27,220 nucleotides of DNA from a virus. Of the stretch, positions 2,962 through 27,220 are shown one piece after another. Where the stretch lies: the IMG/VR virus record IMGVR_UViG_3300030116_002175, positions 1 through 27,220 of that record; one strand, 5' to 3'. The position numbers and the translations under genes were made by a program. Positions within the stretch are counted from its first letter, which is position 1. The number at the start of each line of letters is the position of its first letter. Below the pieces are notes generated by a model, which saw only the letters and a program-made list of their open reading frames with translations, was not told the origin of the DNA and did not search any database.

Positions 2962-3635
2962 TGTCTTATTTAATAAGCAATATACCCTTCTTTAAATGTT
3001 GGGTACGCAAAGAATTTACGCATAATCATGAAAAATATAGAGGTGAGTTTATACATGCTCATGCGTTTGCTGTAACTACGATGCCAGATAGAACACTTGG
3101 TTTTCAAGTTGTGTTTACTGGTTGTGAGGTTGACGGTACTGATGAAACAAATATACACGGTGGAGCAATGTGGGCTAGAATGCCTTTGACTGCATTAGTA
3201 GCCGACATACCATTAGATACCATGCCTGACATTATGCACCCACGCTTTGCTCAGCCTTGGGACTGTAGTTCTCATCACCATAGTGTAGTAAAATTAGACT
3301 ATGTGAGTGTAAGTCCATGGATATGTAAAATAGATAATAGGTTGCATATCGGTAAATATTTATTTACAATAGATTACAGTCAGTCTGATTTAGCAGATGA
3401 TCCAGCTCAGCATAAGCAGAGTCATGTCATTCAGTTAATAAAGGCTGATAATTGGACTGGTAACATTGTTGCCTTGCCAAATAACAGGGTTAGAGTAACT
3501 TCCCCTGCACTCTGGGAAACTGGAGAGGGAGCTCCCGATTTTAAACCGAGTCAATGGACTCATAACGCAGAGGAACATGAACAATATATGGATCCCGAAG
3601 TAACCTTCAACAATCTTTATAAGGAGAATAAGTAA
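2961..3635 (+). CDS. Conserved hypothetical phage protein, 224 aa
   Basis: Its ATG overlaps the preceding TAA by one base and its TAA overlaps the next ATG. The protein is rich in His, Trp and Cys for a phage structural protein. It contains ISNIPFFKCWVRKEF, FIHAHAFAVTTMPDR, a central SSHHHSVVKLDYVSVSPWIC and a C-terminal HNAEEHEQYMDPE. No membrane segment is seen, and I recognise no catalytic family. The histidine clusters could bind metal. Its place between the basic-protein chain and the head-tail genes, in a fully coupled operon, suggests a virion or assembly role. I think similar proteins exist in uncultured marine phages, all without assigned function. Confidence 0.6.
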   Translation: MSYLISNIPFFKCWVRKEFTHNHEKYRGEFIHAHAFAVTTMPDRTLGFQVVFTGCEVDGTDETNIHGGAMWARMPLTALVADIPLDTMPDIMHPRFAQPWDCSSHHHSVVKLDYVSVSPWICKIDNRLHIGKYLFTIDYSQSDLADDPAQHKQSHVIQLIKADNWTGNIVALPNNRVRVTSPALWETGEGAPDFKPSQWTHNAEEHEQYMDPEVTFNNLYKENK

Positions 3636-3832
3636 TGATGAAGAAAAAAAGCTATGCGATGGGTGGTGCTACTAACGATAAAAAGAAAATGATGGGTGGT
3701 GGTGCTATGAAAAAGAAAAGTTTCGCTATGGGTGGTGCTACTAACGAAAAAGAAAAAATGATGGGTGGTGGTGCTATGAAGAAAAAGAGCTTTGCAAATG
3801 GTGGCAAAGTAGTCAAAGGTCCTTATAGTTAA
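3635..3832 (+). CDS. Lys/Met/Gly repeat protein, 65 aa
   Basis: AAGGAG (3621-3626) precedes the ATG at 3635. Almost the entire product is two and a third copies of a 23-residue repeat, MKKKSFAMGGATNEKEKMMG plus GGA, and it ends GGKVVKGPYS. The sequence has no hydrophobic core and is likely disordered. Short KKKGYAMGG-type repeats are familiar to me from small marine phage proteins and from tails of larger internal virion proteins. Charge pattern and location after the basic-protein chain suggest a packaged or DNA-contacting peptide, but that is inference. Its stop overlaps the start of the next gene by one base. Confidence 0.62.
   Translation: MMKKKSYAMGGATNDKKKMMGGGAMKKKSFAMGGATNEKEKMMGGGAMKKKSFANGGKVVKGPYS
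3638..3805 (+). repeat. 69-bp tandem repeat within the Lys/Met/Gly protein gene
   Basis: Unit 1 covers 3638-3706, unit 2 covers 3707-3775 and a partial unit 3 covers 3776-3805. The units begin ATGAA(A/G)AA and share GGTGGTGCTACTAACGA and ATGATGGGTGGTGGTGCT at fixed spacing. The period is 23 codons, so copy-number change keeps the reading frame. Confidence 0.92.
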
Positions 3833-6928: not shown

Positions 6929-8398
6929 ATGGCGAACATTACTGGTTGGGGTAGAGGCACATGGGGTGAAGGAGCTTGGAACGCTCCTTTAGCCGTTGAA
7001 GTTACTGGTGTTGCAGGAACTACAGCACTAGGTAATGAAGTAGCTTTTGCAAACATTACTGTTGTTGAAACTGGTTTAGCTGGAACTTCAGCATTAGGAA
7101 ATACAGTTGAGACGGGAACTGCTAAAGTCACTCCAACTGGAGTTGCTGGTACTTCAGCACTAGGCAACGAAGTTTCTTTTACAAATGTTGTTGTAGTTGA
7201 AACTGGACTTCAAGGAACAACTGCATTAGGTAATGTTGTTCTAGACGGCAATGCTGTTGCAGTTGTGACGGGAGTCGCTGGAACTGGTGCAGTAGGAAAC
7301 ACAACCGAAACTGGTACTGGCGTCATTTCTGTTACTAATGTAGCTGGAACAACTGCATTAGGTACTGCTCAAGCCTTTCCAGAATTTGTTGTAGATGTGA
7401 CAAATGTCGCTGGCACTGGTGCAGTGGGAAATGTTTCTATATCTGGAACGTGTTCTTTTTCCGTTACTGGTGTTGCAGGGACTACTGCGTTAGGTGAAGA
7501 GGGAACATCGGCTGGCTCTCTAGTTGTAGAGACTGGACTGTCTGCAACTGGTTCTATAGGAACTGTAACTATCCTTCCATCAATAGAAGTCGTACCAACT
7601 GGTGCATCAAGCACTGGTGCTATTGGTGATGCTCTTGGGGCTGGAGGAGCACAAGTTGTTGAAGATGGATTAACTGGCACTGTTAATATTGGTGATGAAG
7701 CTGTTAGTGGTGGAGCAACTGTTTCTGTAACTGGTGTGACTGGCACTGGTGGTATTGATACAGACTCAACATTAGTTACATTTATTGTTACAGTCGTAGG
7801 TGGTAATCCTTCTAACCACCCTTACTATAATCAAGGTTCAACAAACAAGTATGCTATTGGTGGTAGCACAGCCACTGCTGATGTAGTCCTGACATTAATA
7901 GAGGGCAGAACTTATAGGTTTGATCAATCAGATAGTACAAATAGTGGTCATCCTATAGCTATTTATGAAGATGCTGATAAAACAACACAATACACAAGTG
8001 GTGTAACTACAAACGGAACTGCTGGAACTGCTGGAGCTTATACTGAAATAACAGTGCCAATAGGTGCTCCAACATTGTTTTATCAATGCACTAATCATGC
8101 TCTCATGGGAGCACAACTTAATACTGAAAGTGCCACTGGTACTGTCGTGACGGGAACATGTACTTTTGCTACGACTGGGGTTTCAGGCACAACAACACTA
8201 GGAGAGGAAACAGTTGATTTAACTTTACTTGTTTCAGTTTCAAGTGTTTCTGCATTAAATCAGATTGGAACACTTGCCATAATACCTGAATCTGTGGTAT
8301 CTTTAACGGGAGTTAGTGCTACTGGTGGTACTGGCGAGGAATTGATCTACAGTTTAATCGTTCCTAATCAAACAGCTAATTGGCAAGAGGTGGCATAA
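6929..8398 (+). CDS. Fibre protein of 22-residue repeats with an inserted cupredoxin-like domain, 489 aa
   Basis: The N-terminus GWGRGTWGEGAWN (6-18) is followed by twelve repeats of the type TGVAGTTALG at residues 26, 48, 70, 92, 114, 136, 158, 180, 202, 224, 246 and 268, a perfect 22-residue period. Residues about 286-400 are a different domain: HPYYNQGSTNKYAI, then YRFDQSDSTNSGHP and LFYQCTNHALMG. Its His341, Cys387, His390 and Met393 reproduce the type-1 copper ligand set of cupredoxins (His ... Cys-x2-His-x2-Met). Three more repeats follow at 416, 438 and 460. The protein is probably a trimeric beta fibre on the tail. Copper binding is inferred, not shown. The Shine-Dalgarno is weak (AAAAGG). 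Confidence 0.75.
   Translation: MANITGWGRGTWGEGAWNAPLAVEVTGVAGTTALGNEVAFANITVVETGLAGTSALGNTVETGTAKVTPTGVAGTSALGNEVSFTNVVVVETGLQGTTALGNVVLDGNAVAVVTGVAGTGAVGNTTETGTGVISVTNVAGTTALGTAQAFPEFVVDVTNVAGTGAVGNVSISGTCSFSVTGVAGTTALGEEGTSAGSLVVETGLSATGSIGTVTILPSIEVVPTGASSTGAIGDALGAGGAQVVEDGLTGTVNIGDEAVSGGATVSVTGVTGTGGIDTDSTLVTFIVTVVGGNPSNHPYYNQGSTNKYAIGGSTATADVVLTLIEGRTYRFDQSDSTNSGHPIAIYEDADKTTQYTSGVTTNGTAGTAGAYTEITVPIGAPTLFYQCTNHALMGAQLNTESATGTVVTGTCTFATTGVSGTTTLGEETVDLTLLVSVSSVSALNQIGTLAIIPESVVSLTGVSATGGTGEELIYSLIVPNQTANWQEVA
7004..7759 (+). repeat. Twelve 66-bp coding repeats (22-aa period)
   Basis: Each unit encodes TG(V/L)xGTxx(L/V/I)G at the same register for twelve units. Units 1-2 and 3-4 are also similar as pairs (NEVAFANITVVE against NEVSFTNVVVVE), which suggests an earlier 132-bp duplication. 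Later units diverge (TGASSTGAIG, DGLTGTVNIG). The repeats are coding, not a CRISPR array. Confidence 0.9.
8174..8335 (+). repeat. Three further 66-bp coding repeats after the inserted domain
   Basis: TGVSGTTTLG, SSVSALNQIG and TGVSATGGTG occur at residues 416, 438 and 460 of the fibre, again 22 residues apart. They resume the repeat family after the cupredoxin-like domain. Confidence 0.8.
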
Positions 8399-26928: not shown

Positions 26929-26969
26929 TATTTTTTGCTCAGCACGATATTATTCGCGGGACGGAAAAT

Positions 26970-26999
26970 ATATCGATATCTGATATTTAAATATCTGAT
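26970..26999. promoter_or_regulatory. Two perfect palindromes and a direct repeat (candidate operator or origin element)
   Basis: ATATCGATAT (26970-26979) and GATATTTAAATATC (26982-26995) are perfect palindromes of 10 and 14 bp, separated by two bases. ATATCTGAT occurs at 26976-26984 and again at 26991-26999. The site sits between the divergent promoters of the helicase and the rightward early gene. It could be bound by a dimeric regulator or serve as an origin element. AT-rich DNA makes such palindromes commoner, so function is uncertain. Confidence 0.5.
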
Positions 27000-27007
27000 T
27001 TATCATT

Positions 27008-27050
27008 TAGACTAAATTGTGTTTTACTACTATATATAAAAGTATATATT
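27008..27050 (+). promoter_or_regulatory. Candidate rightward early promoter region
   Basis: Two overlapping options exist. TAGACT (27008-27013), 17 bases, TATATA (27031-27036) would start near 27043. TTTACT (27023-27028), 16 bases, TATATT (27045-27050) would start near 27057, exactly at the stem of the leader RNA below. None is a perfect match. A rightward promoter is expected here because a GTG-started gene follows at 27188. Confidence 0.38.
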
Positions 27051-27056
27051 TATTAA

Positions 27057-27161
27057 TGCTAGTGTTTAGTAGTGTGACATGCAAACCGTTCACTTGGCTA
27101 CCAAAAGCCCCAAGCTCCTAGGCAAAGGGTGTGAGGTAGTGACAAGGGTTAAACACTAGCA
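27057..27161 (+). ncRNA. Candidate structured leader RNA (closing stem of 12 bp)
   Basis: TGCTAGTGTTTA (27057-27068) is perfectly complementary to TAAACACTAGCA (27150-27161). Inside, ACC and TCAC (27085-27087, 27090-27093) pair with GTGAGGT (27131-27137), leaving a GT bulge. Nested within is a hairpin, CTTGGCT/AGCC-CC-AAG (27093-27114). CTACC (27098-27102) can alternatively pair with GGTAG (27135-27139), which competes with the second helix. The element ends about 17 bases before the ribosome site AGGAGA (27178-27183) of the next gene and has no open reading frame. This is what a riboswitch, attenuator or protein-bound leader looks like. I could not match it to a known Rfam class. Confidence 0.5.
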
Positions 27162-27187
27162 AGACTAACAACAGCATAGGAGAAAGT

Positions 27188-27220
27188 GTGACTGTATTTA
27201 TTACGCAAGAAGTTCCTGGT
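27188..27220 (+). CDS. N-terminus of a conserved phage protein (3' end outside window)
   Basis: AGGAGA (27178-27183) precedes GTG at 27188, and eleven codons run to the window end: MTVFITQEVPG. I recall 'VTQEVPG' as the beginning of a conserved protein of unknown function in the early or replication region of marine phages. The strong ribosome site and clean start support a real gene, transcribed rightward and away from the helicase. Nothing more can be said from eleven residues. Confidence 0.62.
   Translation, partial: MTVFITQEVPG

Follow-up and report, generated by a model that had tools for sequence, protein, structure and literature searches.

Precedents for a 5'-terminal stem-loop, and for the bearing of base pairing there on RNase E, come from the ompA leader of E. 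coli (Emory, Bouvet and Belasco 1992; Bouvet and Belasco 1992; both as cited in PMC3997798). The phage precedent is the stem-loop of T7 gene 10 (Mertens, Remaut and Fiers 1996, as cited in PMC6146998), and the citing study itself found, with that stem-loop, a 1.5- to 3-fold increase in reporter protein together with stabilisation of the mRNA. In these two leaders a stem lies at or very near the start of the transcript, beyond which come a linker and a ribosome site that is left free, and it is the pairing that counts, not the sequence. The phage leader described here is predicted to have the same layout. It differs in that its interior is hypervariable among near-identical phages, reaching the size of a three-way junction of roughly 105 nt, and in that stabilisation is something we infer.

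Hairpin RNAs near the start of a phage operon are also represented by put of HK022 and nut of lambda. These elements act via conserved loop or bulge sequences, whereas no sequence is conserved across the two clades of the present leader. The riboswitch classes in Rfam resemble it as structured 5' leaders with nested helices and, in the full-length forms, conserved unpaired residues. Unlike them, our leader has no Rfam match, no supported alternative pairing and no expression platform, and its interior is dispensable in close relatives. A literature search on such phage leaders found nothing direct, and blast of the region against named phages gave no real match.

Genomic setting of the leader

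The window, i.e. the whole stretch of 27,220 nucleotides that was analysed, comprises bases 1-27,220 of a 51,249-base virus record (G000) and has a GC content of 37%. Judged by capsid and DNA polymerase, the nearest phages are 023Pt_psg01, Phage DSL-LC04 and the pelagiphages HTVC023P and HTVC027P. The leader is located in a divergent region between a leftward SNF2-type helicase gene and a rightward replication operon. The operon begins with a gene of the Pam3_gp32 family (Pfam PF23992, E 1.3e-25; phrog_5888) and continues with genes resembling Pam3 gp33 and gp34 and with those for a primase and a helicase. The start of the Pam3_gp32-like gene (27188-27220, + strand; GTG start, MTVFITQEVPG...) is cut by an assembly gap; the whole gene is present at G000:27390-27698. 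Its position makes it plausible that this is an early gene. The ribosome site AGGAGAA (27178-27184, + strand; ATAGGAGAAAG is invariant in the near clade) begins 17 nt after the stem, as had been proposed in the initial annotation. In the folds it was neither sequestered by nor paired with the hairpin, a value read for this leader from the near-twin L016 since that of the window is a few bases out of register.

Some other genes of the phage were also noted. A 5-hmdU DNA kinase (PF18723), a TET-associated glycosyltransferase (PF20691) and a radical SAM-SPASM protein are encoded in a row at L007:7414-10085 (G000 about 34293-36964) and have a probable role in DNA base hypermodification. A small protein built of MKKKSFAMGGATNEKEKMMGGGA repeats is encoded at 3635-3832, and a 489-aa protein with many degenerate VTGVAGTTALGN-type repeats, probably a virion surface or tail protein, at 6929-8398.

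Upstream of the Pam3_gp32-like gene a block of nested palindromes (CGCGGGACGGAAAATATATCGATATCTGATATTTAAATATCTG; 26955-26997, + strand) is conserved in the near clade, and the far clade carries a similar ATATCnGATATT..AATATCNGAT block. An inverted copy of this palindrome-rich, operator-like segment (CGCGGGACGGAAAATATATCGATATCTGATATTTAAATATCTGAT), 76% identical, was found at G000:46380-46465 (minus strand) upstream of the small terminase gene. The block looks like a putative operator through which a phage regulator would control genes for replication and packaging. A 115-aa protein matching sigma-70 region 4 / helix-turn-helix (E 3e-8) is encoded at L008:4780-5127 and is a candidate regulator for phage promoters.

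Structure and position of the leader hairpin

The two arms of the outer stem P1 (27057-27068 and 27150-27161, + strand) form the perfect 12-bp stem from which the initial annotation had started. Pair probabilities of P1 in the ensemble fold were 0.54-1.00, mostly 1.0, and in 299 of 300 trials P1 was longer than any stem that shuffling the leader produced. The folding energy of the whole leader (-34.8 kcal/mol) was only mildly unusual (z -1.84 relative to shuffles), so energy alone would not have decided whether the structure is real. Relatives were collected via the gene product (19 loci at close range, 80 with an alignment). In the leaders of the window's own (near) clade the longest stem was equalled by few shuffles, 0-8 of 300 per leader.

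The closing stems of the near clade vary in sequence (TGCTAGTGTTTA, GTTGCTAATGCTTA, GTTGTTAATGTTTA, GTTACTAATACTTA etc.), with the complement present each time. For counting covariation in the near clade, nine P1 arm pairs were excised manually and linked through a dummy loop. In these 97.2% of the cells were paired and both-side changes occurred in 6 of the 12 pairs; in the more distant marine (far) clade, where a short hairpin of unrelated sequence occupies the same place, 97.8% were paired and both sides had changed in 3 of 7 pairs (0/500 shuffles), the hand-trimming of both alignments around the stems favouring structure in the percentage paired, not in the double changes. The near-clade covariation score was 0.481 as against 0.258 for shuffled alignments; no shuffle out of 500 reached it and sliding the arms abolished the signal, relatedness being kept by the sliding control and not removed by the shuffles. 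P1 thus passed the test of compensatory changes by which the initial annotation had proposed to judge the stem. Mispairs on the + strand comprised 22 G-T and 4 A-C, as collected by a strand-blind stem search that picked a few far-clade stems imperfectly. This excess of G-T indicates that the + strand RNA is the molecule whose pairing is kept. On this comparative evidence P1 is a real, conserved RNA structure of the + strand.

An independent promoter scan and conservation pointed to a sigma-70-like promoter, TTTTAC-17-TATATT (27022-27050, + strand), equivalently TTTACT-16-TATATT (27023-27050). The predicted start, about 27057, is the first base of the stem, and one of the promoter options considered previously, with transcription starting exactly at the stem, was thereby recovered. 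TTTTAC, the ACTATATATAAAAGT spacer and a TANNNT-like box are common to both clades. The first paired base follows the -10-like box at a distance of 4-7 nt in almost every distinct leader (by direct reading, +6 in L024 and +7 in the window) and is usually paired at 0.8-1.0, so that both clades place it at the predicted transcription start. In four leaders (L079, L088, L107 and L109) the MFE fold adds a few weak pairs upstream, and the start of the main hairpin is unchanged. A second promoter reading, TTGAYM-18-TATATA, clearest in the far clade as judged by eye, would start transcription about 13 nt upstream of the stem. Which reading applies is the main uncertainty in placing the hairpin at +1. 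As deduced from the predicted promoter, the first pair is probably at about +1 of the transcript.

Inside P1, the middle arm begins with a small hairpin, P2 (27070-27084, + strand), which has a GAC triloop (TAGYGT-GAC-ATGCWA) and was recognized in the MFE folds of L019, L021, L022 and L025. In the window P2 is weakened by an A-A mismatch, and the ensemble prefers a competing pairing of that segment, at only about 0.4. In P3 (27085-27149, + strand; alignment A2 and folds) the middle-arm segment AACC..TT (27084-27090) is paired with AA.GGGTT (27144-27150), with an ensemble probability of 0.44-0.48 in the window; P2 and P3 are thus both weak (<0.5) in this copy. The core hairpin (27097-27140, + strand; conserved AAGCTCCTAGGCAAAGG), defined by the ensemble fold and covariance model R1, is firm. 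Its helices P4 (27097-27102/27135-27140), P5 (27107-27110/27127-27130) and P6 (27114-27116/27121-27123), all on the + strand in the ensemble fold, have probabilities of 0.84-0.99 and account for the nested helix and hairpin that had been noticed within the stem. Full-length leaders adopt a three-way-junction fold with conserved unpaired residues, and module 1 contains conserved single-stranded segments.

Covariance model R1 found the core once per record, always at this leader. In 18 phage records there was no second copy except for a weak match to the second allele, and the idea of a mobile repeat was rejected on this ground. Searches of viral contigs with core and module patterns matched only this leader, and the core was absent from 84,980 bacterial and archaeal genomes. 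For a free interior, AAGYTYCTAGGCAAAGG is unusually conserved. The carriers are closely related, and since covariation of the inner-core pairs was not significant, the conservation of the core may be due to recent descent. A 26-codon frame inside the hairpin (27079-27159; MQTVHLATKSPKLLGKGCEVVTRVKH), open in the window and in L016, was rejected as a leader peptide, since only MLTVH remains of it in L019 and L021 and, by eye, it lacks a ribosome site. An 18-mer of the stem also occurred in three unrelated IMG/VR contigs, where the other gene context indicated a chance match. The long leader of L123, upstream of 3001 and about 90 nt in length, is of another kind; its TTAATAAT...ATTATTAA hairpin bears CAGTCCTAGGTAT, which resembles the CTCCTAGGC loop of the window core; the fold of this leader (CCTAGG loop) was no better than that of shuffles (z -0.22).

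Variation of the leader and competing explanations

Among phages that are 95-100% identical on either side, the leaders are 45-49% identical and 26 to 119 nt long. L019 and L028 share 98% identity in the promoter, 99% in the gene and 48% in the leader; the respective values are 100%, 97% and 45% for L022 and L023, and 100%, 98% and 49% for L021 and L024. When about 4 kb was compared in 100-base steps, the leader appeared as a sharp minimum (42-60%) and most other steps exceeded 90%, except at the ends of the alignment; over most of the flanks (2 kb upstream, 1.5 kb downstream) identity is 90-100%. Basal stem, middle arm and core are combined in the window, L016, L017, L021, L022, L025 and L026, basal stem and core in L023, L024 and L027, and basal stem and middle arm in L019. 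A simple hairpin is found in L018, L020 and L028. The last three lack both the core and module 1, and L019, L023, L024 and L027 lack one of them. Every one of these near-clade architectures is still a hairpin starting at about the predicted +1. With flanks nearly identical, leaders at 45-49% and hairpins throughout, it is structure and position that have been kept, not sequence. Because the middle arm has a segment on either side of the core, its gain or loss alters both sides together, which points to exchange of whole leaders with pairing maintained. No such hairpin was seen by eye upstream of the gene in homologues further away (HTVC027P and 023Pt_psg01, and relatives including L064 and L100), indicating that the hairpin is not essential to it.

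A protective or insulating stem-loop at the 5' terminus would fit a hairpin that always forms on the + strand, starts at the predicted +1, leaves the ribosome site free and conserves no sequence. Our leading explanation, to which we assign about even chances, is that the leader would be such an element, with a non-conserved interior, on the mRNA of the replication operon headed by the Pam3_gp32-like gene. The replication-operon transcript would start at or within a few bases of the stem-loop, with the first pair at about +1, and from the hairpin a short single-stranded linker would lead to a ribosome site that is not blocked. The paired 5' end would shield the mRNA from 5'-end-dependent decay (pyrophosphate removal, RNase E-type entry), and the hairpin would also keep the leader from folding onto the ribosome site. 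As only a closed stem at +1 would be required, the interior would be free to change, and it may range from a loop of less than 10 nt to the junction seen in the window. Conserved pairing, + strand polarity, a fixed position relative to the conserved promoter and a hypervariable interior are established by the sequence comparisons. As with known stabilising stem-loops, pairing matters here and sequence does not, in view of the covariation in two clades and the hypervariable interior. Several points count against a protective cap, beside the lack of the hairpin in the distant homologues. If transcription started about 13 nt upstream, the RNA would have a single-stranded 5' tail, which would weaken protection; an invariant AAU loop in the far clade suggests recognition of the loop there; and the conservation of the AAGYTYCTAGGCAAAGG core is unusual for a free interior, though its carriers are close relatives.

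The AAU loop, invariant in 13 far-clade hairpins, together with the location of the hairpin at the operon start, the conserved unpaired core of many near-clade leaders and the single-stranded segments of module 1, speaks for a protein-binding hairpin. Bound by a protein of phage or host, the hairpin could be an element (nut- or put-like) that brings about antitermination or modifies RNA polymerase, or it could be a translational operator for the operon's own product. However, no loop or bulge is common to all leaders, and the near clade has no AAU loop. L018, L020 and L028 contain neither core nor module 1, yet their downstream gene is 81-99% identical in DNA, and loops with nothing in common would need to be bound by the same proteins. 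We regard this explanation of the leader as tentative and somewhat unlikely, a protein-binding role being possible particularly in the far clade.

Another reading makes the leader a cassette that diversifies. The interior of the +1 hairpin would then be replaced again and again through recombination and selection, being itself under attack or conferring identity, for example to evade antisense RNAs (of host or prophage) or RNA-targeting defence, or to exclude sister phages, and the AAGYTYCTAGGCAAAGG core would be one functional cartridge among several. We consider this doubtful.

The initial annotation had suggested a switch, and a ligand-sensing riboswitch or other cis-regulatory switch would agree with the three-way-junction fold and the conserved unpaired residues of full-length leaders. 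It would also agree with the lack of a known family: Rfam gave no match at the gathering score and only spurious matches at E up to 10. But the supposedly exclusive pairing did not hold. CTACC and GGTAG are paired with each other in the main fold at 0.97-0.99, the rival GGCT/AGCC hairpin has a probability of 0.00 in the ensemble, and the arms of the alternative pairing are not preserved in L021, L022 and L025. No intrinsic terminator or attenuator (GC-rich hairpin with U run) was found on either strand, and the stem leaves the ribosome site unsequestered. Neither an aptamer conserved across the homologous leaders nor two exclusive structures acting on a terminator or the ribosome site were found. 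Loss or replacement of an aptamer-like interior where the flanks are 95-100% identical would not be tolerable for a ligand sensor of this operon. The leader is thus unlikely to be a riboswitch, and a switch of any sort is quite improbable. Of the proposed new phage regulatory RNA, the conserved structured leader and its lack of an Rfam family stand; the riboswitch-type reading is not supported, given the interior lost in close relatives.

A divergent promoter region beside replication genes is a usual place for an origin, and the palindrome might act at the DNA level as a replication initiation site or operator, in double-stranded form or as a cruciform. The polarity of the mispairs and the way the hairpin position follows the promoter argue against this, and a hairpin without conserved sequence is no fixed operator, which makes a role in DNA hardly probable.

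The right edge of the window lies at an assembly gap of 10 Ns (G000:27221-27230), beyond which follows a variant copy of 27049-27220 that is 88% identical and differs in the core (G000:27231-27422; L007:342-543). The simplest reading of this junction is that contigs of two coexisting leader alleles were scaffolded, rather than a tandem duplication. That the two are genuine tandem copies in one genome, and the duplication the real object of interest, is very improbable, as exactly 10 Ns are a usual scaffolding filler, the closest relatives of the window (L016 and L017) have a single copy, and contigs L035 and L126 stop inside or at the leader, as expected where strains with different leaders coexist and break assembly.

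Implications for marine phages

If the protective or insulating stem-loop is the right explanation, these marine phages swap nearly all the contents of a hairpin and yet preserve the hairpin itself, at the first base of an important mRNA. The unusual point is why the leader drops to about 45-49% identity while the flanking kilobases mostly stay at 90-100%. We know of little work on RNA decay in AT-rich marine bacteria. The leaders would amount to a natural experiment showing what in a 5' leader is important, and would supply a set of naturally varied 5' hairpins for tests of mRNA protection in such hosts.
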